DNA from: Thermosinus carboxydivorans Nor1
GTDB taxonomy: Bacteria > Bacillota > Negativicutes > Sporomusales > Thermosinaceae
DNA: 32,794 bases
Assembly: GCF_000169155.1 (NCBI RefSeq)
Contig: NZ_AAWL01000026.1
Span: 97-32,890 of the forward strand
Direction of reading: 5' to 3'
Shown here in pieces: positions 3,270 through 32,763 of the stretch. Numbering within the stretch: the first letter of the stretch is position 1; every line of letters begins with the position of its first letter. The position numbers and the translations under genes are program-made. The notes beneath the pieces were generated by a model, which did no database searches, had not been told where the DNA came from, and was given only the letters and a program-made list of their open reading frames with translations.

Positions 3270-3593
3270 TTATTTACTTGGTTTCAGTTTAACACAAGTA
3301 GCTATTGGTGTCAACGTGCTCTGTTCAGCCATGACCGCAAAGAAAGTATCAAGCAGATCGCGCGGGTATGATATTGCGGGTACGGAGCTCTCCCGGTACG
3401 GCTCATCGCCGCACTTTGGCTGATGCGGCGCAGCGCCTCACCCAGTTTTTTGGCGCCGTAGACGAATGGCATCTGAAAAGCATGCTTATATGGAACTTAT
3501 TGTCGGCTAAGGCCAACACCTCGCATTGCAAGCCATATCACTCACCACTGTTCTTACATATCCCCAGCCTTCAATCTTATGATTGTCCTGAAA
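3270..3593 (-). pseudogene. Decayed gene of unknown family downstream of the DUF2292 pair
   Basis: No single frame is open, yet protein-like pieces follow one another in register if single bases are restored: GWGYVRTVVSDMACNAR, then [15 protein letters not shown], then [20 protein letters not shown], and finally [20 protein letters not shown] running to a TAA at 3270-3272. Each junction (near 3525, 3474 and 3363) would be healed by adding one base to a short G or C run. The TAA is followed by a proper terminator, so this was probably the last gene of the unit. I do not recognise the family. The pieces may represent only the C-terminal part of a longer protein. Confidence 0.5.
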
Positions 3594-3785
3594 TCAAATG
3601 CCGTCGCCGTCCACATTTTCCAGTCTCGGCAGGCGCCTCTTCTCGGTTCTATCGATCTGGGTCACTTTCCCGTCTTTTATTTGAATGACCACTTGCCCAT
3701 ACTGAAGACCGCTGAGGGCTTTGAGAATTTCCGCCCTGACAGCCCCACTCTTAAAATCGCTGACCCCTTTTGTTTTCGCGTCCAT
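3594..3785 (-). CDS. YezD-like small protein (DUF2292), second copy
   Basis: A 63-residue protein. Its core YGQVVIQIKDGKVTQIDRTEK (near 28-48) is the DUF2292/YezD signature: a short helix then two beta strands carrying I-x-DG-x-V-x-QIDRTE. The ATG at 3783-3785 follows GGGGAAGCGAG. It starts 18 bases after the stop of the first copy, so the two are co-transcribed. The family has no established biochemical role; from memory its members often sit with sulfate or sulfite assimilation genes, which would fit the reductase downstream. The extra C-terminal tail after RTEKRRLP has no recognised function. Confidence 0.8.
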   Translation of the reverse strand: MDAKTKGVSDFKSGAVRAEILKALSGLQYGQVVIQIKDGKVTQIDRTEKRRLPRLENVDGDGI

Positions 3786-3803
3786 CTCGCTTCCCCTTTC
3801 CCA

Positions 3804-3968
3804 TCATACCAGCTTTATTTTCTCGTTTATTTCGATCTGGATGACTCTCCCGTCCTGAACGATAATCGTAATTGAACCGTATCCTACTGTGCGGATTGCC
3901 GCCTCAATCTTTTCCCAGACCCGGGGCGGCAGATTGTCGGGTGTATTCATGCTACTGCCAACCGCCAT
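3804..3968 (-). CDS. YezD-like small protein (DUF2292), first copy
   Basis: Reading leftwards from an ATG at 3966-3968 (54 residues) the protein contains NLPPRVWEKIEAAIRTVGYG followed by SITIIVQDGRVIQIEINEKI, the same helix, strand, DG-x-V-x-QI and strand layout as the next gene. An ATG two codons earlier (3972-3974) lies only 2 bases from the GGGAGG site, so the second ATG, 8 bases away, is the better start. The RTE of the second copy is replaced by EIN here, so the two copies have diverged. Confidence 0.72.
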   Translation of the reverse strand: MAVGSSMNTPDNLPPRVWEKIEAAIRTVGYGSITIIVQDGRVIQIEINEKIKLV

Positions 3969-4250: not shown

Positions 4251-7200
4251 TCAGCGGCTTGCGCGCCCGACCGGCACGATCTGCCCGGTACTGAAGACAT
4301 AGAGATATATTTCTTTAACTGGCTGCCGTAAAATAGTCTCCATCGCGGCGGCATAGAGCTTAAGCTGTACGTCGTACCGCTCAACCAGTTCAAACCCGTC
4401 CTTTACCTGGTCGGTCTTGTAGTCAATCAGGATCAAGCCGTCAGCCTCGGCAAAAAGGCAGTCGACGACGCCCTGGATAAAGACCGTTTCGTCCGTACCG
4501 GCCAGGGCCGGATCGATGCTGGCCGCCGGCAGTACCTGGCAAAAGGCCAGTTCACGTCTGCGCCACGCGGCGTTTAGCAGGCGCTGCCCCAGCGGGCTGG
4601 TGAAAAAGGCGGCAATAGCCTCCACATCGACCGCCGCGGCCTGTTCGGGCAGGAGAATTTCCGCCGCCACCAGGCGCTCCAACTCGCGGCGCACGCCGGA
4701 AGCGCTCATGTCGCCGGCCAGGTTGAGGTGTTGCATGACGGTGTGCATGGCCGTGCCCACTTCGGCCGCAGTTAGTTTGCCCGCCGTCTGAATAAAGCGC
4801 GGCCGCGCCGCCAGCCGCGGCGGATACCACTGCTCGCCGTCCTGGTCCGCCAGCGCGAACCGGCGCTTGATTTCACTGACCGTGAGTTTCGCCGGCTGAC
4901 CCACGGCCGCGGCATAAGGATACCGCCAGTCCAGCCGCGCTGCCACCCAAGCGCTGTCGCCACCGGGCAGGGGTTTTAATTCTTTAAGGCAAACAGCCAG
5001 TGGATTATCGGCGGGCTGGGCCGGCGCGACCGGATTTATGCTATCGGCCGCATGGGTAATGACCTGCCAGGCCGCATTAAGTGCAGCCAATTTTGCGGTC
5101 GGCGTTTCGTCACAACCAGCCAGCGCACGCAAGGGGGCGCCGCCAGGATGGCGGACGATGGCCGGCCCCAGCCAGTCGAGATAGTTCTTGGCATCAGTGA
5201 TCAGCGCGTCCGGCAGCGCCTGGGCCTGCCAACCCACCATGGCGCACCAGTCACTGCACCGGTCGGCTAATTTTTTCACCGATCCCACCAAAATAAGTTT
5301 TTCCCGCGCCCGCGTCAGGGCCACGTACAAGATACGCAGCTCTTCCGCCTTGGCCTCCAGCGTCAGCTTGTGCTCAATCCCCCAACGTGCCAGCGTCGGG
5401 TAGCTATCCCGAAGGTCGGGGCGGATAACCTTGGGCCCTAACCCTAGTTCTTTATGGCACAGCACTAGTTCCTGCGTATCCCGCAAATTTAGCTGCTTGC
5501 CAAGGTCGGCCAACACGACCACGGGAAACTCAAGGCCCTTGCTTTTGTGAATGCTCATGACCCGGACCACATCTTCGCCTTCGCCTAACGCCCGTGCCAC
5601 CGCCATATCCGAACCGCGGTCGCGCAGCCGCTCAAGAAAGCGCAAGAAGCGGAATAGTCCCCGGAAGTTGGTCGCTTCGAACTGGCGGGCCCGGTCGTAG
5701 AGGACGCGCAGGTTGGCCTGGCGCAGAGCCCCGCCGGGCATACCGCCGATATAGTCATAATACCCTGTTTCGCGGTAAATGCTCCAGATAAGCTCGGCGA
5801 CGCCCCGCCGCCGCGCCAGACTCCGCCACCGGTCGAGCCGTTCAAGAAAAACGCCAATCTTTTGCCGGAGCGGCTCAGCTATATCAGCCCCGGCAGCGGC
5901 CGTCAGCGCCGTCCACAAGTCGCCGTCCTTGCACAGGCGGATGGCGGCTAGGTCACCAGCGGTTAGGCCCACGAGCGGCGACCGTAGCACGCCAGCCAGG
6001 TGAATGTCCTGGCGAGGGTTGTCAATGACCGCCAGCAAGGACAGCATGACCTGCACTTCTGTTTCCTCAAAATATCCGCCATCAACATCGGCGTAGGCCG
6101 GGATACCGGCTTGCCGCAGCACGTCAAGCAGCACACCCGCCTTGCCCTGCACCGTCCGCAGCAGGATGACTATGTCGCGCCAGGCCAGCGGCCGGTAAGC
6201 CTTGTCGTGCTTGTCGTAAACGACATGGCCGGCTTCTTTCAGCGCTAGCAGCCGCCGGGCAATAAGCCATGCCTCCCGCTCAAACGCGGTTAGTTCCTGG
6301 GCGGTAACCAGCTCACTGCTATTTGCCGGCTCATCGCCGCCCGCGTCCGCATCTTGCTGCTCCGCCTCGTCCTCGACTACGTCAGCTGCCGGCGCCGCGG
6401 CTACCGCCTCGGCCTGGTTAATAAGATGCACTTCCACCGGCCCGGCCAAAGTCAGCTGGTCGCACGGCGGATAATCTGGCCCGGGATTGAGGGCTTCGGC
6501 CGCGCCGTAGCCCATCTCGGCCGCCCGCGGCGTCATAAGCTGGCTGAACAGGAAATTAACGGCTGCTAAAATGCCAGGACGGCTGCGGAAATTCTGCGCC
6601 AGGTCGATGCGCCGCTCGCTGCCGCCCGCTGCCGCCGGATAGCGGTTGTATTTTTCCAGGAACAGGCCCGGTTCGGCCAGGCGGAACCGGTAGATGCTCT
6701 GTTTGACATCGCCGACCATGAAGCGGTTGGGCCGGTCAGGCCGCGACACCAGCTCTAAAATGGTTTCCTGAACGGCATTGGTATCCTGGTATTCGTCCAC
6801 CAGCACTTCTTCATACTTCTCGCGCAGAGCCAGTGCCACCGCCGACGGCTGTATATTATCAGGGGTCGCGTTGTCGGCCAGCAATATCTGCAGGCAGTAA
6901 TGCTCAAGGTCACTGAAGTCGACCAGCCCCTTGGCTTTCTTGGCCTCTTGAAAGCGCTGGCCGAATGCGAGCACAAGGTCAATAAGTGTTTCAACAAGCG
7001 GCAGCTGGGCGCGCATGTCGGCGATAAGCTCCTGTTCTGGCCGTCCGAAATAGCGCTCGGCTATCTCTTTCACCTTGGACTTAATGGTATTCCGCCGCTC
7101 CTGAAAGCGCTTACAGACGGCGGCATCCACGCCCTTGGCTGCGGGGAGAGTACCGAACTTCAGGCCATTCAGCGCCGCCCCCAGTTCGCGCCAAGAATGC

Positions 7201-21545: not shown

Positions 21546-21892
21546 TCAAACGGGCGAGCGAATTAGTTACCGAGGTTGCTACTAACCGGTTCGGCGGCAA
21601 GGGTGAAGTAATTGGGACCAAACTATTGGACATGGAACAATTGCAAGGGAAAGGCCGGTTATTCTCCCATAGCATTCTCAAGCCGGGCTGCTCTATCGGT
21701 TACCATCAGCACAATGGCGACGCTGAGACCTACTACATCCTTAAAGGCGAAGGCATTGTCAACGATAACGGCACGCTGGTTAAGGTCCATGCCGGAGACG
21801 TGGTCTTTACCGCCGACGGCGAGTCCCACTCCATTGAAAATACCGGTACGGAAGACCTGGAATATATCGCTTTAATCCTCTACTCCAAATGA
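21542..21892 (+). CDS. Small single-domain cupin protein
   Basis: 116 residues from an ATG after GGGGAGTTGAGAGC. The cupin beta barrel is clear: motif 1 gives His55, His57 and Glu62 (GYHQHNGDAETYYILKGEG) and motif 2 gives His96 (GDVVFTADGESHSIENTG). These four would bind a metal such as Mn, Fe or Ni. Small cupins of this kind include isomerases, sugar-binding and regulatory proteins; the substrate cannot be told. A hairpin at 21902 follows closely. Confidence 0.85.
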   Translation: MIKRASELVTEVATNRFGGKGEVIGTKLLDMEQLQGKGRLFSHSILKPGCSIGYHQHNGDAETYYILKGEGIVNDNGTLVKVHAGDVVFTADGESHSIENTGTEDLEYIALILYSK

Positions 21893-21901
21893 AATTGTAA
21901 C

Positions 21902-21930
21902 AGCCTTTACGCATTATGGGCGTAAAGCCT
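21902..21930 (+). terminator. Hairpin after the cupin gene
   Basis: CTTTACGC (21905-21912) pairs with GCGTAAAG, extended past one C:C mismatch, followed by GGTTGTTT. The T run is poor, so termination may be partial. It precedes the strong promoter of the methionine operon. Confidence 0.5.
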
Positions 21931-21951
21931 GGTTGTTTAGCAATAAATCCC

Positions 21952-21980
21952 TTGACAGAAATACATTTTTGGCGTATATT
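21952..21980 (+). promoter_or_regulatory. Sigma-A promoter for the riboswitch-controlled operon
   Basis: A perfect TTGACA (21952-21957) and TATATT (21975-21980) are exactly 17 bases apart. The riboswitch aptamer begins about 32 bases downstream. Confidence 0.85.
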
Positions 21981-22012
21981 TATCTCAACTGTCAAAAGTT
22001 GTATACCGTGTA

Positions 22013-22119
22013 CTCTTATCAAGAGCGGTGGAGGGACTGGCCCTGTGAAGCCGCGGCAACCGGCAGCAATGCGTCTGGTGCCAAATCCAGCAGAATCTTC
22101 GGATTCTGGAAGATGAGAG
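22013..22119 (+). promoter_or_regulatory. SAM-I (S-box) riboswitch aptamer
   Basis: All S-box hallmarks are present in order: CTCTTATCAAGAGCGGTGGA, GGGACTGGCCCTGTGAAGCC, CGGCAACC, GGTGCCAAATCC and closing GATGAGAG. The P1 helix pairs CTCTTATC (22013-22020) with GATGAGAG (22112-22119). Binding of S-adenosylmethionine stabilises P1. The 3' strand of P1 (GAGAGGAAAG, 22115-22124) is also complementary to CTTTCCTCTC (22150-22159), which forms the antiterminator when SAM is absent. The switch therefore turns the downstream operon off when SAM is plentiful. Confidence 0.96.
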
Positions 22120-22143
22120 GAAAGGTATGGCTGCCATAATATG

Positions 22144-22180
22144 GCGTCTCTTTCCTCTCAGAAAGAGACGCTTTTATTTT
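22144..22180 (+). terminator. Riboswitch-controlled intrinsic terminator
   Basis: GCGTCTCTTTC (22144-22154) pairs perfectly with GAAAGAGACGC (22161-22171) and is followed by TTTTATTTT. Its left arm shares bases with the antiterminator helix (22150-22159), so the two structures exclude each other. This is the expression platform of the SAM-I riboswitch. Confidence 0.93.
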
Positions 22181-22209
22181 ACCTTTTTCAATAAAAGGGA
22201 GGCTTTGTT

Positions 22210-23379
22210 ATGGCAGCACCAAAAAGAAGCTATGAAGAAATCAACGAACGCATCCGCAAGGGGCAGGCGGTAGTACTCACCGCCGAGGAGGTCAGCCAAC
22301 TGGCCAAAGAAGAAGGAATAAGCGCCGTCGCCCGTAAGGTAGACGTAGTCACCACTGGCACCTTCGGTCCCATGTGCTCTTCCGGGGCCTTTCTCAACTT
22401 CGGCCACAGCGACCCGCCCATCAAAATGAAACGGGTGTGGCTCAACGACGTGCCCGCCTACGCGGGCATCGCCGCCGTGGACGCCTACATCGGCGCCACG
22501 GAAATATCCGAAACAAATGAGCAATACGGTGGCGCCCATGTCATCGAGGATCTTGTCGCCGGCAAGCGCGTTCACCTTAGAGCCACCGCTCCGGGTACCG
22601 ACTGCTATCCCCGCAAGAGCATCGATACCTGGATCACCAAGGACGACATTAATGAGTGCTTCCTTTTCAATCCCCGCAATGCCTACCAGAACTACGCCGC
22701 CGCCACCAACACCTCCAATCGCATCCTCTATACCTACATGGGCATGCTGCTGCCCCGCTGCGGTAACGTTACCTACTCCACCTCCGGCGAGCTCAGTCCA
22801 CTCCTCAACGACCCCCACCTGCGTACTATCGGCGTGGGTACGCGCATCTTTCTGGGCGGTACCGTAGGCTACGTCGCCTGGAACGGCACCCAGCACAACC
22901 CCTCACGCCCCCGCAACGAACATGGCATCCCTGTCGGTGGCGCCGCCACCCTTGCCCTTGTGGGCGATCTTAAGGCGATGAACCCGGAATTTCTCCGGGC
23001 TGCCGTCTACGAACGCTATGGCATCAGCCTGTTTGTGGGCGTGGGTATCCCGATCCCCATCCTTGATGAAGACATCGCACGCTGCGTGTCTGTCACGAAC
23101 GCCGACATCGAAACCTGCCTCTTTGACTATAGCGTCCCCTCCCGCAACCGCCCCGTCCTGGGACGCTACAGTTACGCAGAACTCCAGTCGGGCAGCATCT
23201 CCTTAAACGGCCGCCGCGTGCGCACCGCTCCGCTGTCCAGCCTGGCCAAAGCCCGGCAGATCGCCGCTCTCCTCAAGGAGTGGATCCGCACCGGCCGCTT
23301 CGAACTGACCCACCCGGTAGCGCCTTTGCCGCAGGAAGCCACCCCGCGCCCCCTGGACATCCGAAAGGAGGATGAATAA
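22210..23379 (+). CDS. Homocysteine biosynthesis protein, DUF39 (L-aspartate semialdehyde sulfurtransferase)
   Basis: 389 residues from an ATG after GGGAGGCTTTGTT. The DUF39/COG1900 family is clear: SAVARKVDVVTTGTFGPMCS at 38-57, KRVWLNDVPAYAGIAAVDAY, GKRVHLRATAPGTDCYPRKS, and VGTRIFLGGTVGYVAWNGTQ. Cys56 and Cys132 lie in the conserved blocks where the methanogen enzyme has its catalytic cysteines. In Methanosarcina the homologue, with a ferredoxin-like partner, converts aspartate semialdehyde and sulfide into homocysteine. No CBS domains follow, unlike some archaeal forms. Control by a SAM riboswitch and the partner genes next door agree with this role. First gene of a four-gene operon. Confidence 0.92.
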   Translation: MAAPKRSYEEINERIRKGQAVVLTAEEVSQLAKEEGISAVARKVDVVTTGTFGPMCSSGAFLNFGHSDPPIKMKRVWLNDVPAYAGIAAVDAYIGATEISETNEQYGGAHVIEDLVAGKRVHLRATAPGTDCYPRKSIDTWITKDDINECFLFNPRNAYQNYAAATNTSNRILYTYMGMLLPRCGNVTYSTSGELSPLLNDPHLRTIGVGTRIFLGGTVGYVAWNGTQHNPSRPRNEHGIPVGGAATLALVGDLKAMNPEFLRAAVYERYGISLFVGVGIPIPILDEDIARCVSVTNADIETCLFDYSVPSRNRPVLGRYSYAELQSGSISLNGRRVRTAPLSSLAKARQIAALLKEWIRTGRFELTHPVAPLPQEATPRPLDIRKEDE

Positions 23380-23384
23380 TAATT

Positions 23385-23828
23385 ATGGCTGTCACGGAAC
23401 GCATCATCCTGAACTTCACCGCCGAGAACTACGACAAACCTATTACCTATCATCTGGTTAAGGACTTCGACCTCAAGATTAACATTCTCCGGGCCGAGGT
23501 AACCCCCGGCGAGGAAGGCCATCTGCTGCTGGATGTAGAAGGGGAACCGGAGCAAGTTACTGCTGCGCTGGCTTTTCTGCAGCAAGAGGGCATCGACGTC
23601 GTCTCTACCCGCCGCCAGATCCAGGTTGACACCGGGCGCTGCACCCACTGCGGCGCCTGCACGGCGGTCTGCTTCTCCCGGGCGCTGGTGCTTGAACGCC
23701 CCACATGGGAGCTGTCTTTTCACCCCGACAAATGCATTGTCTGCGGTCTGTGCGTGCAGGCTTGTCCCGTGCGGGCCATCCGGCAGGGATCGGCCGGTCG
23801 CAGCGCAGAGGAGCTGGCAGGTGCATGA
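23385..23828 (+). CDS. NIL domain plus two [4Fe-4S] ferredoxin motifs, partner of the DUF39 protein
   Basis: 147 residues. The N-terminal 75 form a NIL domain (ITYHLVKDFDLKINILRAEV), a ligand-sensing fold best known from methionine transporter ATPases. The rest holds two CX2CX2CX3C motifs: Cys86, 89, 92, 96 and Cys117, 120, 123, 127. It is the counterpart of the protein that accompanies DUF39 in methanogens, where it is thought to deliver electrons or sulfur for homocysteine formation. It begins 5 bases after the first gene ends and its stop overlaps the next start by ATGA. Confidence 0.9.
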   Translation: MAVTERIILNFTAENYDKPITYHLVKDFDLKINILRAEVTPGEEGHLLLDVEGEPEQVTAALAFLQQEGIDVVSTRRQIQVDTGRCTHCGACTAVCFSRALVLERPTWELSFHPDKCIVCGLCVQACPVRAIRQGSAGRSAEELAGA

Positions 23829-24622
23829 CCGGCTATGAACCGCGCTGGTACCGTGAAGAGCTGCACCGCACCGAACTGTCTCCCTTTGTAGTACGCTTTC
23901 GCGAAACCGACCTATGGGTGGCTGTACCGCCGGAAAAAGACACTCCGGCGCTGCGCCGGCTATGCCAGGTAACGGCAGCCACCCTCTGGCAGGAACTACA
24001 CGACTACATCCTCACCGATCCCCGTTTTTACCATTCGCTCGTGCCCTATTTGCCGCGCTTCGGCTGCCCGCCGGTGGCCGCGCGCATGGCCGCTGCTGCC
24101 GAAAAGGCCGGTGTGGGGCCCATGGCTGCGGTGGCAGGCGCCTTTGCGGAAGAAATCGCCCTGGTGCTTGCCAGACGTTTTTCCTTAACCGACATTATCG
24201 TTGAAAATGGCGGCGACATCTACCTAGCCTCCACTGTCCCACGGCGCATCGCCGTCTGGGCAGGTAATTCGCCGCTTTCGGGGAAAATTGCCCTGGACAT
24301 CGCGCCCGACCTCTCCCCGCTGGGCATCTGCACTTCTTCGGCCACCGTCGGCCCGTCTCTCAGCCTGGGCAAAGCGGATGCCGTCACCATTCTGGCTCGG
24401 GATACCGCCACCGCCGACGCCTTTGCCACCGCCGTGGGCAACCAGGTGCGCACCGCTGCCGACATCGAAAGCGCGCTCGTTTTTGCCGCTGAACAGCCGG
24501 ACATTCTGGGCTGCCTTATTATTATCGGCGACCACCTCGGCGCCATCGGCCGCATCCGGCTGGCCCCGCTGGCTGACTCAGTGCCTATAAATACCGCAAA
24601 GAAAGGATGCCGTCCATGTTGA
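23825..24622 (+). CDS. UPF0280 family protein (COG2122), third component of homocysteine synthesis
   Basis: 265 residues from the ATG at 23825, which overlaps the previous stop codon (ATGA). The family is recognised by AAAEKAGVGPMAAVAGAFAE, LTDIIVENGGDIYLAS and DLSPLGICTSSATVGPSLSL, a fold related to ApbE (FMN transfer). A COG2122 protein in Methanosarcina has been linked genetically to the DUF39 route for homocysteine. An in-frame extension 40 codons upstream is only the overlap with the ferredoxin gene. It overlaps metF by 7 bases, so all four genes are tightly coupled. Confidence 0.88.
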   Translation: MTGYEPRWYREELHRTELSPFVVRFRETDLWVAVPPEKDTPALRRLCQVTAATLWQELHDYILTDPRFYHSLVPYLPRFGCPPVAARMAAAAEKAGVGPMAAVAGAFAEEIALVLARRFSLTDIIVENGGDIYLASTVPRRIAVWAGNSPLSGKIALDIAPDLSPLGICTSSATVGPSLSLGKADAVTILARDTATADAFATAVGNQVRTAADIESALVFAAEQPDILGCLIIIGDHLGAIGRIRLAPLADSVPINTAKKGCRPC

Positions 24623-25473
24623 TCCACCAACTGTTCGCCCAAAAACGTCCCGTCGTGTCCTTTGAAATCTTCCCGCCCAAACCGGATTCCCCTCTGGAAT
24701 CCATTTTTGACTGCATTGAAGAACTGCAAGCGCTAAAACCCGATTTCATCAGCGTTACCTACGGCGCGGCCGGTTCTACGCGGGGCCGCACACTGGAGGT
24801 AGCCCGCCACATTCAGCATGACCATGGTATTCCCGCCCTGGGACACCTTACCTGCGTCGGCGCCACCGCCGAAACCATCCAGGCTATTTTGCACGAGTTT
24901 GCCGCTCACGGCATTGAAAATATCCTCGCCTTACGGGGCGACCCGCCGAAAAACGCCCCTTTTCCCCCTACTCCTTACCGCGCCAAAGACCTCATCCGCC
25001 TTATCCGCCAGCAGCGCCGCAGCTGCAGCGTCGCCGCCGCCGCCTACCCGGAGGGGCACCTGGAAAGCCCCAGCCGTGAGGACGATCTACGGTTTCTTAA
25101 AGAAAAGGTCGACACCGGTGTCGATTTCCTGATCACCCAGATCTTTTTCGACAACGCCATCCTCTACCGCTTCCTGGAAGATGCGCGGGCGCTGGGCATT
25201 GATGTTCCGGTCATGGCCGGCATTATGCCTGTCTTCAGCCGCCCCCAGGTGGAGCGCATCTGCTCGCTCTGCGGCGCTACACTACCGCCAGCATTGCGTA
25301 AGCTGATGGAAAAATATGGCCACGACAAAGAAGCAATGGAACAGGCGGGCCTTGAATACGCCAGCCGCCAGATTGCAGACCTTCTGGCCCACGACATTGA
25401 CGGCGTGCACCTGTATACTATGAACCGCCCCCATCTGGCCCGCACCCTGGTCCGGAATACGAGCCTGCGATAG
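24616..25473 (+). CDS. metF: Methylenetetrahydrofolate reductase
   Basis: Reduces 5,10-methylenetetrahydrofolate to 5-methyltetrahydrofolate, the methyl donor for methionine synthase. From the ATG at 24616 it has 285 residues, normal for MetF, with VVSFEIFPPKPDSPLE at the N terminus, ISVTYGAAGSTRGRTLEVA, GHLTCVGATAETIQAIL, NILALRGDPPK and FLITQIFFDNAILYRFLEDA as family landmarks (a FAD-binding TIM barrel). I choose the second ATG because GAAAGGA runs directly into the first one. Last gene of the SAM-riboswitch operon, followed at once by a terminator. Confidence 0.95.
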   Translation: MLIHQLFAQKRPVVSFEIFPPKPDSPLESIFDCIEELQALKPDFISVTYGAAGSTRGRTLEVARHIQHDHGIPALGHLTCVGATAETIQAILHEFAAHGIENILALRGDPPKNAPFPPTPYRAKDLIRLIRQQRRSCSVAAAAYPEGHLESPSREDDLRFLKEKVDTGVDFLITQIFFDNAILYRFLEDARALGIDVPVMAGIMPVFSRPQVERICSLCGATLPPALRKLMEKYGHDKEAMEQAGLEYASRQIADLLAHDIDGVHLYTMNRPHLARTLVRNTSLR

Positions 25474-25518
25474 GCCCCACAAACAGGCAAAGTAACCATC
25501 AAGTTTAACAGGCAACAC

Positions 25519-25556
25519 TAAAAGGCAGCCGTGTCAGGCTGCCTTTTAATCTTTTT
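25519..25556 (+). terminator. Bidirectional terminator after metF
   Basis: TAAAAGGCAGCC (25519-25530) pairs perfectly with GGCTGCCTTTTA (25537-25548), followed by ATCTTTTTTC on the plus strand. It serves metF and, read leftwards, the PHP phosphatase, whose stop codon lies within the stem. Confidence 0.9.
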
Positions 25557-26322
25557 TCATATATTGTATTTTCCGATCTTTAAACCAGACCGGCCGTAAG
25601 CGACAATATTCAGCAATGGCCAGCGCCACGTCCATCCCTTTGCCGATATCGCCGGGGGTGTGAGCGTCCGAACCAATAGTTACCAGTCTCCCGCCCAGCT
25701 CATAAAACCGTTTGTAGATCAGGATAAGCGCATTTACCGTTTCCTTTTGATTTAACCGCCGGGTGTTTATCTCCATCGCCAATTGCCGCTGGGCTGCGGT
25801 AGCCAATACTCGGTCAATAAGCTCAGGAAACTCGTGATAATAGATTTCCGGATCAGTAAACCGGGCATACCGGGCAATATAGTCGATATGCCCCAGACTG
25901 TCAATAAAATCATAAGACTCCAGACACTCGGCCATGGCCTCAAAATATTGGCGATAAACTTCCGCTTTCGTCCGCAAGTCATAAAACTCGGCGCAGTAAA
26001 TATCTATATTGTCAATGACATGGATCGAGCCAATGACATAATCAAAGGGATGATCCTTGACAATCCGCCGGTTATCGGCCACAAGGCCGGGCTGCATTCC
26101 AATCTCGATGCCAAGCAGCACCTGCTCGCTGCGGTATCTTTCATATGCGGCGAAATACGCCACGGTATCAAAAATAAAGGCCTGCGGCTCAGGGTAATTT
26201 AAGTCCATATGCTCGGTAATCGCAATTCCCAACCCCAACTCACCGGCTCGAGCCATAGCCTGGTTTATCGTCATCCGCGAATCGGTAGAAAACCTGGTAT
26301 GCATATGGGTATCAAACAGCAT
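25546..26322 (-). CDS. PHP-family phosphatase, probable histidinol phosphatase
   Basis: 258 residues from the second ATG (26320-26322), which has GGAG eight bases upstream; the first ATG, six bases earlier, is too close to that site. The PHP metal-binding pattern is complete: DTHMHT near the start, ITEHMD, GIEIGM, IGSIHV, LGHIDYIARY, MEINTR and GSDAHTP. The length and the DYVIGSIHVID block fit the HisJ/HisK-type histidinol phosphatase, which would make histidinol from histidinol phosphate. No other his genes are near, so a different phosphoester substrate is possible. Confidence 0.85.
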   Translation of the reverse strand: MLFDTHMHTRFSTDSRMTINQAMARAGELGLGIAITEHMDLNYPEPQAFIFDTVAYFAAYERYRSEQVLLGIEIGMQPGLVADNRRIVKDHPFDYVIGSIHVIDNIDIYCAEFYDLRTKAEVYRQYFEAMAECLESYDFIDSLGHIDYIARYARFTDPEIYYHEFPELIDRVLATAAQRQLAMEINTRRLNQKETVNALILIYKRFYELGGRLVTIGSDAHTPGDIGKGMDVALAIAEYCRLRPVWFKDRKIQYMKKD

Positions 26323-28288: not shown

Positions 28289-29029
28289 TCATGCCCCAAG
28301 AGCATTGAGCGCTTTGGCGGCAATGTTTAAGGCACCAACTCTGTCCGCATCGGATTGGTAGCCACATTTGATACATTTGAACCAACCCTGCGTTTTGCGG
28401 TTGCAGCGGGAAACATTCCCGCACTTCGGACAAGTCTTGGAAGTCTCTTTGGGGTCAACGTAGAAAACCAGCACTCCGGCAAGAGCAGCTTTGTACTCGA
28501 TAAAAGATGCCAATTCTTTGAAATTCCAGCCGGACAGCATCCGGTTGAACTTCTTTGAACCTCTGACCCCTCTTGCCAAATCTATGAGTTTTCTGGCGTG
28601 ATATAAAGAAGCGGCAATAGGTACGGCTATCTGGCTTCTGCCGGAAGAGACGGGAAATTTAATAACCCACGTCCCGGAAGGGAGCTGGTGGAGAGAGTAG
28701 CAGTCCTGCCGCACCATTACCGGAACCATTGTCTCAAACTTAGGCAGACTAGCCTTTTTACCCCTTTGCTTGCGGGAAAGGTAGGAGCGCCTGGCAGACA
28801 AGGCTTTAAGCATGGCGCACTGGAGCGTACCTCGATTTAGGTCGAATAATCCCGAAGCCTGCTTATAAGTTTCACGGTTGAGCACTGCTCGGCTGGCAGT
28901 ATTGAGTGCTTCGGCCTGAGCCAGGAACCAGGAGCACGCCTGGTGGTAGATCTCCAGCATCCGGACCATTTTCTCCAGCTTACCTTTGTTGGGAGACAGG
29001 AGTTTTATTTTAAGAGTTATAGTTTGCAT
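28289..29029 (-). CDS. tnpB: TnpB with an internal deletion removing RuvC-I and RuvC-II
   Basis: TnpB is an RNA-guided endonuclease of about 370-400 residues; this one has 246. The N-terminal helical domain is complete (MQTITLKIKLLSPNKGKLEK to about 145), and the C-terminal zinc finger (Cys200, Cys203, Cys219, Cys222) and RuvC-III aspartate (Asp229 in SDADRVGALNIA) remain. Between SLYHARKLIDLARG and VRGSKKFNRMLSGWNFKELA the usual ~150 residues are gone in frame, including the first catalytic Asp (GVDLG-type) and the Glu of the second motif. So it cannot cut DNA by the known mechanism. The ATG follows GGAGGAGATATTAA and a good promoter, so it should still be made. Confidence 0.85.
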   Translation of the reverse strand: MQTITLKIKLLSPNKGKLEKMVRMLEIYHQACSWFLAQAEALNTASRAVLNRETYKQASGLFDLNRGTLQCAMLKALSARRSYLSRKQRGKKASLPKFETMVPVMVRQDCYSLHQLPSGTWVIKFPVSSGRSQIAVPIAASLYHARKLIDLARGVRGSKKFNRMLSGWNFKELASFIEYKAALAGVLVFYVDPKETSKTCPKCGNVSRCNRKTQGWFKCIKCGYQSDADRVGALNIAAKALNALGA

Positions 29030-29054
29030 TTAATATCTCCTCCGGTTTGCTTAA

Positions 29055-29082
29055 ATTATAGCATAACCAGGGGAATTTTCAA
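29055..29082 (-). promoter_or_regulatory. Promoter of tnpB
   Basis: On the minus strand TTGAAA (29077-29082) and a perfect TATAAT (29055-29060) are 16 bases apart. The tnpB ATG lies 25 bases downstream. Confidence 0.7.
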
Positions 29083-29150
29083 ATCGCCATTCATCCCCCC
29101 GATTAAAATCAGGGGCATTCTGGCGGAAATTTTGTAAAACACGGGCGGAG

Positions 29151-29545
29151 ATTATTATCCCCCTTGTCGCCAAAACCAGCATTTCTGTAATAGATGCTCT
29201 TAAGCAAGTTGAAGAACAATTTGGCGACCTTTTCCCGAAAGTGTTTAAGACGTTTACTGCCGATAACGGCTCGGAGTTTGCTGATCTGGACGCATTTTCA
29301 AAGAACCATAATACCAGTGTATACTTTGCTTATCCCTATTCTTCCTTTGAGAGAGGCACAAATGAACGCCATAACGGTCTCATCCGCTTAATTTTCCCAA
29401 GGAGACCAGCATAGCAGCTTTGGCTACCCCTGTCATTCAACGTATTCAGAATTGGTGCAATCATCTGCCTCGCAAAATACTCGGCTATAAACTTTTCAGC
29501 AATGTTTTGACGAGGAACTGGCCCAAATTTCTTGACAGCCTCTAA
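29151..29545 (+). pseudogene. C-terminal part of an IS30-family transposase, frameshifted
   Basis: Two frames join into the integrase core end of an IS30 transposase. The first reads FKTFTADNGSEFADLDAF (the second catalytic Asp) and YPYSSFERGTNERHNGLIRL (the catalytic Glu in the hallmark ERGTNERHNGLIR). The second continues KETSIAALATPVIQRIQNWC then NHLPRKILGYK to a TAA at 29543-29545. Adding one C to the CCC near 29398 would fuse them. The N-terminal half is absent. The sequence around 29572-29595 (GTGTTGCATTTG then ATTGCAATTTAG) looks like an IS30-type terminal repeat, marking the element's right end. Confidence 0.8.
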
Positions 29546-29626
29546 ACATACCGTTAATTTTTACAGGGTGTTGCATTTGCTATTGCAATTTAGAGTCACT
29601 AAACTGTCACCAATTTAACATAACAA

Positions 29627-29655
29627 AAGGCCTGCGAGATAACCTCGCAGGCCTT
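29627..29655 (-). terminator. Terminator downstream of the truncated tRNA
   Basis: AAGGCCTGCGAG (29627-29638) pairs perfectly with CTCGCAGGCCTT (29644-29655). Read leftwards it follows the tRNA 3' end by about 9 bases and is followed by TTGTTA. It is the chromosomal terminator of the tRNA that the element used as its target. Confidence 0.8.
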
Positions 29656-29663
29656 AATTTTCC

Positions 29664-29710
29664 TGGTGGGGCATACTGGTTTCGAACCAGTGACCTCTTG
29701 AATGTGAGTC
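29664..29710 (-). other. Attachment site: 3' part of a tRNA-Val gene
   Basis: Read leftwards, the segment from GACTCACATTCAAG to CCACCA is the 3' half of a tRNA. It has an anticodon loop CTCACAT (anticodon CAC, valine), anticodon stem TCAAG, variable AGGTC, T arm ACTGG-TTCGAAA-CCAGT, acceptor strand ATGCCCC, A, CCA. The 5' half is missing: sequence beyond 29710 does not pair with it. A tyrosine integrase starts only about 90 bases away, so this is an att core left by integration into a tRNA gene. The complete tRNA is expected at the far right end of the element, outside the window. Confidence 0.8.
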
Positions 29711-29722
29711 ATGTACAAGGTA

Positions 29723-29750
29723 TTTTTGGTGTCACCAGTATCGCCAAAAA
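29723..29750. repeat. Inverted repeat between the att core and the integrase gene
   Basis: TTTTTGG (29723-29729) and CCAAAAA (29744-29750) are inverted around a 14-base spacer. Read leftwards it could terminate the integrase transcript; equally it lies where integrase arm-binding sites or an excision factor site would be. Confidence 0.45.
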
Positions 29751-29800
29751 CCATTGTAGTTATTGGTTTGAAGTCATATGTCATTACGAGATTTAACAGG

Positions 29801-30982
29801 TTATTTATCTTGATATGCTACAGATATGCTACAGTTCTTGAGCGTTTGTGGTGCAGACGCCCTGATGGTCTCTGTGATTGCGTCCTGCCCACCGGTGACA
29901 CGGTGGGCATATACATCCAACAGCATTTTGACGGTTGCATGGCCGAGGCGGTATTGGGCCTCTTTAACTGGCGCACCGGCTGCGACAATACGCGAAGTGA
30001 GGTCATGACGAAGGTGATGTACGCCAATATCAAGACCGGCTGCTTTGGCAATGCGTGCAAACCGTTTCGACCAATTGCGCGGGTCATATAGCGTACCGCC
30101 TGACGTTGGAAACACCAGGCCGCAGTCCTGCCAGGCCGGACCGGCGGCAAGGCGGCACTGCATCTGACGCGCCCGGTGAGCCCGTAGCACCTGCATAACT
30201 TCTTTTGGCACCGGCAAGACGCGCTTCGTTGCCTCTGTTTTTGGGTCGGCCAGTACGCAGCCGCCGCGCCGGATTTGCACCGCCCGGCGAACATTGATTA
30301 AGCAGCGGTCAAAGTCGATATCATCCCACATCAGGCCCAACAGTTCGCCTCGCCTTAGGCCGGTCGCCCACTCGACAACCAGCGCGGCGAATATGTCCGG
30401 CGCTGTTTGCGCCGCAGTCAAAAGAGCGTCCCATTCGTCTGGTGTGAGTGGCCGCTTATCTTGTTTTCTGACTTGTGGTACGGCGACATCGTCGGTCGGC
30501 AGCGTCCGCAACAGGCCATGTTTACGCGCTACGCGCAGGGCCATAGCAAGGACGCTGTGCACAGCCTGCACCGTCCGTGCAGATTTGCCTGCATCGACCA
30601 AGCTGTTTAAAAGCTGCTGCACAGCCATTTGTTGCAGGCGCGACAGGCGCAAATGTCCAATTGCCGGTATTAGATGTACGCGGCAAATGCGCTCGTACCA
30701 GTCATACGTACTAGGCGCGACGGCCGGCCGCGCGTATACGTCCAGCCACTTGGCCAGCCAGTCGCCAACAGTGATTTTGTCAGCGTCTACATAGTAGGCA
30801 GCCTCATATTGCGCGGCCAGAGCGTCGCGCTTTTGTTTTGCCTCAGCCTTTGTGCGGGCATAGACTACTTTTCTGACCGGTTTTCCTGTATCAGCGTTTC
30901 GGCCAACGACAATGGCGGCAACCCATAAGCCATCGTTTCTTTGGTATATACTGCCTTCGCCTTTTGCTCGCCTTTTCCCCAC
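29801..30982 (-). CDS. int: Tyrosine recombinase, phage-type integrase
   Basis: 393 residues from a GTG at 30980-30982 following GGGGTGATATC. An N-terminal AP2-like arm-binding domain (GKRRAKGEGSIYQRNDGLWV), a SAM-like core-binding domain (about 70-165) and the catalytic domain follow in order. The active residues are visible: Arg210 in ATGLRRGELLGL, Lys248 in ADPKTEATKR, His322 and Arg325 in HHLRHDLTS, His348 in LGHAT and the nucleophile Tyr358 in LDVYAH. It should integrate and excise the element at the tRNA-Val site next to its 3' end. Gene orientation towards the att site is typical. Confidence 0.95.
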   Translation of the reverse strand: MGKRRAKGEGSIYQRNDGLWVAAIVVGRNADTGKPVRKVVYARTKAEAKQKRDALAAQYEAAYYVDADKITVGDWLAKWLDVYARPAVAPSTYDWYERICRVHLIPAIGHLRLSRLQQMAVQQLLNSLVDAGKSARTVQAVHSVLAMALRVARKHGLLRTLPTDDVAVPQVRKQDKRPLTPDEWDALLTAAQTAPDIFAALVVEWATGLRRGELLGLMWDDIDFDRCLINVRRAVQIRRGGCVLADPKTEATKRVLPVPKEVMQVLRAHRARQMQCRLAAGPAWQDCGLVFPTSGGTLYDPRNWSKRFARIAKAAGLDIGVHHLRHDLTSRIVAAGAPVKEAQYRLGHATVKMLLDVYAHRVTGGQDAITETIRASAPQTLKNCSISVAYQDK

Positions 30983-31036
30983 GATATCACCCCTTACCCC
31001 GTAATAATGCCAATACCCATTTGGGCACCATCGGCA

Positions 31037-31369
31037 CTATTTAGCTGCTGCCTTGTCATCAGCAGACAAGGCCGTTAATAGCCTTTCGATCATTAGCTTA
31101 TCCTCTGGCTTGAGGCGCGCAATTTTTTCGGCTATGGCGCGCGCGTCGTTTGCCATGCCGGTAAAGTCCTCCGGCATCTCCAGCAGCCAATCAGTCGTTA
31201 CGCCGCAGGCCAGGGCGATTTTACGTATGTGCTCACTATTTGGCTCATTGCGCCCGGTCTCCCATGCGGCCAGTGTCACTCGCTTGACGCCGACCACATC
31301 AGCCAGCTTTTCCTGCGACAGGCCCGCCAAATGGCGGGCCTGTCGGATTTTGTCAGCTATCCCACTCAT
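31037..31369 (-). CDS. Xre/CI-like repressor
   Basis: 110 residues. An Xre helix-turn-helix occupies residues 5-60: IRQARHLAGLSQEKLADVVG, VKRVTLAAWETGRNEPNSEHI. The C-terminal 45 residues form a helix rich in Ala, Lys and Glu (EKIARLKPEDKLMIERLLTA) that would allow dimerisation; there is no peptidase domain, so it is not cleaved like lambda CI. It is transcribed away from the early genes and faces the operator region at 31370-31513, so it probably holds the rightward promoter silent. Confidence 0.9.
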   Translation of the reverse strand: MSGIADKIRQARHLAGLSQEKLADVVGVKRVTLAAWETGRNEPNSEHIRKIALACGVTTDWLLEMPEDFTGMANDARAIAEKIARLKPEDKLMIERLLTALSADDKAAAK

Positions 31370-31386
31370 ATCACCGCCTTGCCTTT

Positions 31387-31416
31387 ATTATATTGCCATG
31401 CGTTACAACATTGTAA
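31387..31416 (-). promoter_or_regulatory. Leftward promoter for the repressor and integrase
   Basis: On the minus strand TTACAA (31411-31416) and a perfect TATAAT (31387-31392) are 18 bases apart. The -35 box lies within the palindrome TTACAACATTGTAA, so repressor bound there would control its own gene. Confidence 0.65.
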
Positions 31417-31492
31417 AGCATTGTTACAACATAGGCTTGACCGTTTTTTTCCGCCGTGGTACTATTGTTATAGAACGTAACAACTTGTTACG
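31403..31492. promoter_or_regulatory. Operator sites in the repressor/early-gene intergenic region
   Basis: Three related palindromic sites share a TTACAA/TTGTAA or GTAACAA core: TTACAACATTGTAA at 31403-31416, TTGTTACAA at 31421-31429, and the perfect CGTAACAACTTGTTACG at 31476-31492. The first overlaps the leftward -35 box and the third lies just after the rightward -10. This is the arrangement of a lambda-like switch and the sites are the obvious targets for the adjacent Xre protein. Confidence 0.7.
31437..31465 (+). promoter_or_regulatory. Rightward early promoter
   Basis: TTGACC (31437-31442) and TACTAT (31460-31465) are 17 bases apart on the plus strand. The strong palindromic operator begins 11 bases downstream, ideally placed to block transcription of the excisionase-like and replication genes. 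Confidence 0.65.
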
Positions 31493-31513
31493 AAACATAA
31501 GGGGGGGCGTAAA

Positions 31514-31734
31514 ATGGCAAACATGAAAATCATGGCGACCGTTAAAGATTCGCCGCAATGACTGGCATTGGCCAGAATAGGGTTCGCGAGATGTGTTATA
31601 TTGATGGCTTTCCGGCGACGAAAGTTGGAAACAAGTTTTTAATCCACATCGAGGCGGCCAATGAGTGGCTACGGCGGCGGGCCGAAGCCAAAGACGGCAT
31701 CGACGCCAATTTACTAAGGAGGTGTGGCCAATGA
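31514..31734 (+). pseudogene. Excisionase-like DNA-binding protein, frameshifted near its start
   Basis: The first ORF after the switch begins at ATG 31514 after GGGGGGGCG and reads MANMKIMATVKDSPQ before a stop. One frame over, the sequence continues without a break as AMTGIGQNRVREMCYIDGFP, ATKVGNKFLIHIEAANEWLR, to a TGA at 31732-31734. Adding one T to the TT at about 31551 gives VKDFAAMTGIGQ and a 72-residue protein of the helix-turn-helix excisionase/MerR-like type, with the usual 'G-F-P..K.GN.FLI....EWL' ending. The stop overlaps the next start. Either the gene is dead or a base is missing in the data. Confidence 0.75.
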
Positions 31735-31925
31735 CGGCGCTGGAAAGACGGTATGCAATGGAGTGTTGCGACCAAATAGAGGCGCGGCTACGAGCGCTTA
31801 TAGAGGTGCTGCGATATGCAGAGACGCCGCAGGAGGCTGCTGCCGGTAGTATGGCCAGAGCCGCGCAAGCACTCATTGAGGGAATTAGTCAACAGTTGAT
31901 ATTGTCGGACACTGATGAAAAATGA
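31731..31925 (+). CDS. Small phage-like protein of unknown function
   Basis: 64 residues from the ATG at 31731, seven bases after AAGGAGGTG. Two acidic-basic helices (MTALERRYAMECCDQIEARL, LRALIEVLRYAETPQEA and a second MARAAQALIEGISQQLIL) suggest a short helical bundle. No family recognised. It overlaps the preceding frame at ATGA and the next gene at ATGA, so it belongs to the early operon. An in-frame extension upstream runs through the excisionase-like gene and is excluded. Confidence 0.6.
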   Translation: MTALERRYAMECCDQIEARLRALIEVLRYAETPQEAAAGSMARAAQALIEGISQQLILSDTDEK

Positions 31926-32290
31926 ATTACATAGCCCAAATTAACGCATTTTTCGACAGGTTGCCGTCGCGGCCGCTATCAGTCCACGCTGTGGCCATGT
32001 GGTGCTACCTGACCCACTTGGCCAACCGGGCCGGCTGGCCGCGAGATGGTGTAGTGGTGCGCGAGGATACGCTGCGGGGCGTCCTAGGCATCGGGCACGG
32101 CACTTTTTGCCGCGCCCGGGCCGAACTCGCGGCCGCCGGCCTGATAGCTGTGCTACATGGTACCGGAAACAGGCCGCCGCGCTATGTGTTGGCCGACCTG
32201 ACGCAGCAGGCGCAAAAGGTAGCGACTGTCAACAAAGATATCCACAGCCAAAGCCTGCGTGATAGGTTGCAGTCCAGTTTGCCGTCCTGA
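31922..32290 (+). CDS. Winged-helix protein, probable replication organiser N-terminal domain
   Basis: 122 residues, starting at ATGA shared with the previous stop. The pattern LSVHAVAMWCYLTHLANRAG then VVVREDTLRGVLGIGHGTFC, RARAELAAAGLIAVLHGTGN, RPPRYVLADL is a winged helix as found in phage replication initiation proteins (DnaD/replisome-organiser N-terminal domains), where the second helix-turn-helix is followed by a beta wing. The family's C-terminal primosome part is missing; the rest is a short polar tail. Position just ahead of two DnaA boxes and ssb supports a replication role, but the call is by resemblance. Confidence 0.6.
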   Translation: MNYIAQINAFFDRLPSRPLSVHAVAMWCYLTHLANRAGWPRDGVVVREDTLRGVLGIGHGTFCRARAELAAAGLIAVLHGTGNRPPRYVLADLTQQAQKVATVNKDIHSQSLRDRLQSSLPS

Positions 32291-32314
32291 CTGTCGTCCA
32301 TATTGGACGGCAAA
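32278..32314. repeat. Inverted repeat after the winged-helix gene
   Basis: TTTGCCGTCC (32278-32287) is exactly complementary to GGACGGCAAA (32305-32314) around a 17-base loop. It begins inside the last codons of the winged-helix gene. No T run follows, so it is more likely an RNA structure or a protein-binding site than a terminator. Confidence 0.6.
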
Positions 32315-32344
32315 GTGGACACATATATATAAACGATACTATAC

Positions 32345-32395
32345 GAGATATATATATCTCATAACAGTAGTAGGGGCTGTGGATAATGTGGATAA
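32345..32395. promoter_or_regulatory. AT-rich palindrome and two abutting DnaA boxes
   Basis: GAGATATATATATCTC (32345-32360) is a perfect 16-base palindrome in an AT-rich run. It is followed by two directly repeated, abutting copies of TGTGGATAA (32378-32386 and 32387-32395), the complement of the DnaA box TTATCCACA. A near match, GATATCCACAG, lies at about 32237. Such a cluster beside an unwinding-prone sequence could be the element's replication origin or a DnaA-controlled ssb promoter. Confidence 0.6.
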
Positions 32396-32442
32396 CCCTG
32401 GTGACAACAGGTAATATAAGGCTTTGGAGGTGTGAGTAACTT

Positions 32443-32763
32443 GTGAATATTGCAATCTTTTGCGGCCAATTGGCCGATGACCCGGAAGTAAGATACACGG
32501 CAACAGGCAAGGCCGTTACCACCTTTACGCTTATAATCGACAGGGAAGGGCAGGGGAAGGATTATATCCCTGTCGTCACATGGGAGAGGCTTGCAGAATC
32601 GTGTGGCAATCGCCTATCCAAAGGCCAGACTGTGGCCGTAACAGGACGTATATCGTATCAACGGTATACCGACCAAACCGGGCAGCGCAGGACGTCGTGC
32701 GAAGTAGTGGCGTCCAATGTCGAGTTTGGCGGCATCACGAACAATTACGTCAATCCGTTTTGA
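32443..32763 (+). CDS. ssb: Single-stranded DNA-binding protein
   Basis: 106 residues, shorter than chromosomal SSB (about 140-170), starting at a GTG with GGAGG twelve bases upstream. The OB fold is clear: MNIAIFCGQLADDPEVRYTA, GKAVTTFTLIID, DYIPVVTWERLAESCGNRLS, KGQTVAVTGRISYQRY and the basic SCEVVASNVEF. It lacks the usual acidic C-terminal DFDIPF tip, ending instead in NNYVNPF, so interaction with host repair proteins may be altered. An element-encoded SSB near the presumed origin fits autonomous replication. Confidence 0.92.
   Translation: MNIAIFCGQLADDPEVRYTATGKAVTTFTLIIDREGQGKDYIPVVTWERLAESCGNRLSKGQTVAVTGRISYQRYTDQTGQRRTSCEVVASNVEFGGITNNYVNPF

Follow-up and report, generated by a model that had tools for sequence, protein, structure and literature searches.

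A SAM-I riboswitch-headed DUF39 operon, probably for homocysteine synthesis, coexists with a SAM-switched metY-metX pair in Thermosinus carboxydivorans Nor1

Within a 32,794-nucleotide stretch of contig NZ_AAWL01000026.1 of Thermosinus carboxydivorans Nor1 (hereafter the window, with positions counted from its first letter), four intact genes are tightly packed in one direction on the forward strand behind a SAM-I (S-box) riboswitch for S-adenosylmethionine (SAM), forming an operon at 21952-25548. They encode a DUF39 protein, a NIL-ferredoxin protein, a UPF0280 protein and the methylenetetrahydrofolate reductase MetF. We read this, with high confidence, as a SAM-repressed homocysteine operon that runs parallel to a second SAM-switched route, metY-metX, in the same genome. 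There is good support for assigning it to the formation of homocysteine from aspartate semialdehyde and sulfide, a pathway already published for Desulfovibrio and Methanosarcina. An original prediction, made from the sequence alone, had proposed this three-gene route, its feedback by SAM and its link to metF, and had added that the route replaces the usual acyl-homoserine path. The former interpretation is retained here, whereas the replacement is not.

The leader contains all elements that had been predicted for it. The sigma-70-type promoter TTGACA-17-TATATT (21952-21980, forward strand) matches the consensus at 11 of 12 positions and is the top-scoring of five promoter-like sites found by scanning 21850-25600, where 1.6 are expected. 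It is followed by a complete SAM-I aptamer (22013-22119), which covers 108/108 model positions of RF00162 with 95.3 bits (E 6e-22; gathering score 44.4) and is the sole Rfam match in the whole window at the gathering threshold. The antiterminator is formed by a 5' arm (22114-22124), which shares bases with the closing helix of the aptamer, and a 3' arm (22150-22160), which shares bases with the 5' arm of an intrinsic terminator (22143-22172; a hairpin followed by a T-rich tail); the two antiterminator arms are exact reverse complements. The predicted fold of the full leader combines aptamer and terminator (-66.8 kcal/mol, z -3.71), and that of the leader minus most of the aptamer shows the antiterminator (-27.0 kcal/mol, z -3.73), in both cases with 0/200 shuffled sequences as low. 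By sequence and predicted folds, antiterminator and terminator are mutually exclusive. Judged from its sequence, the leader is built like a typical S-box transcriptional switch, with the genes predicted to be off when SAM is plentiful. Aptamer, antiterminator and terminator are of the same type as in the known SAM-I regulon of Bacillota, whereas the members here include DUF39, NIL-ferredoxin and UPF0280.

The tight packing of the four genes was likewise confirmed. The DUF39 gene (22210-23379), the product of which is a candidate COG1900a-type subunit of L-aspartate semialdehyde sulfurtransferase (L-ASST), is separated by five bases from the NIL-ferredoxin gene (23385-23828), which in turn overlaps the UPF0280 gene (23825-24622) by four bases. 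The UPF0280 family is taken here to be COG2122. The overlap between UPF0280 and metF (24616-25473) amounts to seven bases with a start at 24616, which was chosen from a reading of the ribosome site, or to 16 bases with a start at 24607, where the open reading frame opens. MetF scores 307.6 bits against TIGR00676, over the cut-off of 293.7, and an intrinsic terminator 3' of metF (25519-25548) marks the operon end.

The DUF39 protein matches PF01837 over profile positions 1-349 of 349 (524.4 bits). An alignment of 86 sequences, comprising the window, 80 DUF39 loci and five further loci of the same order (Sporomusales), shows no variation at its Cys56 and Cys132. Based on their spacing, these residues probably equate to Cys54 and Cys131 of the Methanosarcina enzyme MA1821, which lies outside this alignment; PMC12068725 reports Cys54 as essential and also describes Cys131. 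The second protein, composed of a NIL domain and two 4Fe-4S motifs, is a probable electron-supplying partner, in which the eight cluster cysteines are kept in all sequences that cover them (57/57 or 56/56). The same three protein families, with the same conserved DUF39 cysteines and presumably the same reaction, make up the L-ASST (DUF39-NIL-COG2122) pathway of Methanosarcina (MA1821-1822) and Desulfovibrio vulgaris Miyazaki F, whereas in T. carboxydivorans they lie, together with metF, in one operon under a SAM-I riboswitch and coexist with acyl-homoserine genes. According to PMC5764234, D. vulgaris Miyazaki is apparently without genes for the well-characterised routes, all three genes are required in D. 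vulgaris, and methionine rescues the mutants. Both this pathway and its dependence on all three proteins are known from other species.

The AlphaFold2 model of the DUF39 protein has a high mean predicted local distance difference test score (pLDDT 94.3). A single-sequence search of the PDB gave no match for this protein, the chains retrieved by a profile search, antibody-like ones among them, were all unrelated (best E 0.0059), and comparison of the model with the PDB gave no convincing fold match (Foldseek best E 0.11; VIA best Z 3.5). Failure to match does not in itself indicate a new fold.

The UPF0280 model (mean pLDDT 91.6) strongly matches the fold of DVU1097 (PDB 2o34, Pfam DUF375; Z 29.5, root-mean-square deviation 2.0 Å over 219 residues, 35% identity), the entry title of which states no function, while the sequence itself has no Pfam match. 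The model also resembles the ApbE/Ftp flavin adenine dinucleotide:protein flavin mononucleotide (FMN) transferases (VIA Z 16.0-18.6 over 201-215 residues, with the next rows at Z 8.7; Foldseek E down to 1.1e-7). Since hhalign against E. coli Ftp profiles gives a weak result (E 0.093 over 29 columns, in which the ADAxxT segment aligns), this relation rests on fold comparison. UPF0280 shares the overall fold and keeps the TS and ADAxxT segments, whereas the spacing from TS to ADA is 27 residues in 44/48 UPF0280 sequences against 44 residues in Ftp. HxxDP, which we take to be the flavin-site motif (HVIDP in E. coli Ftp), is found in the TS-ADAxxT segment of 0/48 UPF0280 sequences, and its single occurrence anywhere among the 48 is in the C-terminal tail of the protein of locus L028. 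Because this segment is without HxxDP, UPF0280 has an ApbE-like scaffold that fails an expected feature of an FMN transferase. Cys169, which adjoins the TS motif, is kept in 43/48 sequences and replaced by Ala or Gly in the remaining five (L015, L017, L053, L061, L071). As the DUF39 proteins next to these five keep both cysteines, the idea of Cys169 as an indispensable sulfur carrier is weakened. UPF0280 had been called the least understood part of the operon; its role is less obscure than that, as PMC5764234 reports that D. vulgaris COG2122 mutants need methionine and that the Methanosarcina counterpart MA1715 is needed at low sulfide only.

The acyl-homoserine route was searched for in the same genome (2.89 Mb, 49 contigs, 96.56% complete), a search that covers the genomic half of the refutation named beforehand, the other half being failure of the three genes to give homocysteine from aspartate semialdehyde and sulfide. 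It found MetX and MetY and no MetA. A homoserine dehydrogenase with an intact frame is encoded on contig C29 (241.8 bits), and contig C7 carries an intact metX (390 amino acids; 485.7 bits against NF001209, over the cut-off of 331). Against TIGR01392, MetX reaches 454.8 bits with a cut-off of 500, which is attained in 0/14 control genomes, nine of which have a match. Directly before metX lies metY, which encodes an O-acetylhomoserine sulfhydrylase in an intact frame (TIGR01326, 689.9 bits over 495.1) and whose product is also over the cut-off of the homocysteine synthase model NF006096 (732.5 over 726). In the metY-metX leader, the promoter fits the consensus at 12/12 positions, the SAM-I aptamer scores 89.7 bits, and a separate terminator is exactly matched by an antiterminator arm, so the switches of metY-metX and of the DUF39 operon share one design. 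A second PF01053 protein, on contig C8, is over the cut-off of no NCBIfam model among the 25 matches listed. The genes of both homocysteine routes therefore coexist in this genome, and the replacement of the acyl-homoserine path fails here because homoserine dehydrogenase, MetX and MetY are all present; this does not refute the DUF39 pathway itself.

At least five SAM-I boxes occur in the genome, with 150 of the 251 first-look candidates scored. They precede, among others, the DUF39 operon, metY-metX, metK and a metNIQQ-like transporter, the last two named by eye from their translations. A further box lies on contig C7 near position 4400 (locus L102, 1401-2218) and is followed by three small genes, two of which match DUF2292 (PF10055) and the third of which resembles this pair with no Pfam match; behind them are two more genes, one ATP-pyrophosphatase-like (by eye, LarE-like) and the other resembling cysK by eye.

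SAM-I control was examined across DUF39 loci by an Rfam scan of all 80 loci and the five further loci of the order. The DUF39 operon has a SAM-I box upstream in 16/19 Bacillota loci (not in L026, L043 and L062) and in 4/5 of the further genomes of the order (not in L123), and in 0/61 non-Bacillota loci, three of which (L035, L036, L057), with fewer than 200 bases ahead of DUF39, are too short to show one. In a quick tree, the SAM-I label requires six changes against a shuffled mean of 18.9 and is thus clustered, to which near-copies contribute. The recurrence of such boxes ahead of DUF39 operons in Bacillota is new here: a literature search, with most subscription journals outside its coverage, found no paper linking SAM riboswitches with DUF39 or COG1900. 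Gene neighbours were counted in the 62 loci that have 2.5 kb or more of downstream sequence (18/80 loci were left out as too short), and DUF39, NIL and UPF0280 occur together in 34 of these. A metF at the operon end was seen only in the window and in L014 among the 86 loci, a few of them truncated; the distance between UPF0280 and metF in L014 is about 350 bases.

In most box-bearing loci the SAM-I box directly precedes DUF39, while metX (L030), a short metH (L034) or another gene (L019 and L021) can lie in between. L030 and L034 belong to one genome. In L030 (1885-6320), a SAM-I box, metX, DUF39, NIL-ferredoxin and, 220 bases further on, a cystathionine-synthase/lyase-like gene (483.4 bits, cut-off 594) follow each other in one direction, with no UPF0280 seen before the contig end at 6583. 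This locus groups genes of both homocysteine routes behind one SAM-I box. Elsewhere, metY and metX lie downstream of DUF39 (L060), or a SAM-I-headed metH cluster faces the DUF39 operon (L016 and L022). The gene between box and DUF39 in L019 (5098-5967) and L021 (5053-5967) encodes a protein of about 290-300 residues, the L019 copy of which has no Pfam or NCBIfam match. Two tandem T-box leaders are divergent from the DUF39 operon in L120, L121 and L122 (around 5100-5700, reverse strand).

A survey of 28 genomes of the order retrieved DUF39 in six, all of which have DUF39, NIL and UPF0280 together. UPF0280 at ≥ 250 bits occurs in exactly the same six genomes, adjoining DUF39, and 11 further genomes have weak homologues only (50-81 bits). 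Full-length MetX is present in 17/28 genomes, including five of the six with DUF39 (the sixth, G006, is 65% complete), and MetA in 20/28, including two of those six. G001, the other genome of the genus, has MetX, with a SAM-I box within the stretch around metX (L124), and neither DUF39 nor UPF0280 was found in it. The survey of MetX was widened to 49 other DUF39-bearing bacterial genomes, derived from 50 of the 66 bacterial loci, in which 13 have a full-length MetX, 14 have weak matches (≤ 101.5 bits) and 22 have none. No full-length MetX was thus seen in 36/49 of these genomes, in which MetA was not searched. The coexistence of both routes is not universal, and the DUF39 route may stand alone in other genomes. 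Two of the distant UPF0280/ApbE-like proteins of the order (80-81 bits; L115, 105-2172, and L116, 98-2175) lie beside a conserved 411-residue protein, the L115 copy of which has no Pfam match, so the UPF0280 family has a second, different setting.

In the mechanism that we favour for T. carboxydivorans, the leader would form the antiterminator at low SAM and the operon would be transcribed, while bound SAM would hold the closing helix of the aptamer, so that the terminator forms and transcription stops. DUF39 would accept sulfur originating from sulfide, probably carried as a Cys56 persulfide, and pass it to aspartate semialdehyde, with the NIL-ferredoxin protein donating the electrons that yield homocysteine. 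UPF0280 would be an ApbE-fold accessory required for the route, possibly in sulfur loading or maturation of DUF39, and MetF would produce methyltetrahydrofolate for the next step. In parallel, metY-metX would answer the same SAM signal and make homocysteine from O-acetylhomoserine and sulfide. The DUF39 route would save NADPH (reduced nicotinamide adenine dinucleotide phosphate) and acetyl-CoA at the price of requiring low-potential electrons and intact clusters, and the pair may therefore suit different redox or sulfide conditions. The activity of this operon copy, the order of its chemistry and the role of UPF0280 are what we infer here.

Several results weigh against the reading of a SAM-repressed homocysteine operon parallel to metY-metX. 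UPF0280 scores 257.8 bits against NF003323 (PRK04334), under the curated cut-off of 271, a value reached by one of the order's six strong homologues, and one or both partners were missing beside DUF39 in 28/62 loci at the thresholds used. In the nearest relative with a metF-containing DUF39 operon (L014, genome G028), no MetX was found. Moreover, PF02574, the profile of MetH/BHMT-type homocysteine methyltransferases, which matches in 9/14 control genomes, has no match in this 96.6% complete genome, in which MetE types were not searched. The lack of a full-length MetX match in 36 of the 49 other DUF39-bearing genomes, the closest relative included, together with the absence of MetA from the source genome, could also be taken to mean that the DUF39 route is the sole homocysteine supply and that MetX and MetY serve, for example, sulfide or methanethiol scavenging. 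We consider this highly improbable: homoserine dehydrogenase, MetX, a homocysteine synthase over its model cut-off and SAM-I-switched metY-metX are all found here, MetX accompanies DUF39 in five of six genomes of the order, L030 places metX and DUF39 behind one box, and the completeness of the 49 genomes is not given. It is less probable still that the DUF39 enzyme turns an aldehyde into a thiol other than homocysteine. PMC12068725 assigns the role of primary coenzyme M synthase in M. acetivorans to methanogenesis marker 16, which belongs to the same COG1900 family, and the marker 16 model TIGR03287 does match the DUF39 protein. That match, at 138.7 bits, is far under the curated cut-off of 363.95, and marker 16 was rejected as its identity; in addition, the DUF39 protein retains the COG1900a cysteine pair, its ferredoxin partner is encoded separately, as in L-ASST, and the met neighbours and the control by SAM point to methionine.

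The operon might also be an acquired, conditionally used duplicate with little effect beside metY-metX, which we regard as unlikely. It is absent from G001, the sole other genome of the genus examined, the guanine-plus-cytosine (GC) content of its four-gene stretch (0.606) exceeds that of the window (0.551) and that of metY-metX (0.537), and genes for a TnpB-like protein and an integrase are found some 3-5 kb further downstream. On the other hand, nothing links the integrase to the operon, all genes are intact and the conserved residues are kept. The quick tree pairs the DUF39 of the window with L014, a Negativicutes metagenome-assembled genome (support 99), within a 13-row Bacillota set (support 95) that holds the five other sequences of the order. 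GC content and absence from G001 thus suggest horizontal transfer, while the placement among Bacillota speaks against it. In a more far-reaching reading, which we hold to be rather improbable, the two homocysteine routes would be kept as redox- and sulfide-dependent alternatives under same-design SAM-I switches, the ferredoxin-driven DUF39 route sparing NADPH and acetyl-CoA and metX-metY being used when low-potential electrons or iron-sulfur clusters are limiting; UPF0280 would then have lost flavin transfer and would use Cys169 for sulfur loading of DUF39.

SAM-I control in Bacillota provides independent regulatory evidence for DUF39 operons in methionine synthesis, UPF0280 included. The presence of DUF39 does not imply the loss of the acyl-homoserine route, which matters for metabolic annotation, and coexistence allows either route to be removed in one organism to ask when each is used. 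UPF0280, ApbE-like and without HxxDP, and DUF39, with no convincing PDB match, are good targets for sulfur-transfer chemistry.

Downstream of the operon (28289-32763), the window also holds genes for a protein with a Cas12f1/TnpB-type domain, for a tyrosine integrase and for a single-strand DNA-binding protein (SSB), which suggest an integrated element near the contig end. On the reverse strand at 1187-2863 lies a nitrite/sulfite reductase-type gene, for which the best NCBIfam model is ferredoxin-nitrite reductase (499.7 bits, cut-off 594). This gene, about 20 kb away from the operon, might provide sulfide. Near it, the opposite strand of an open reading frame at about 3579-3875 resembles by eye the DUF2292 repeats of L102.

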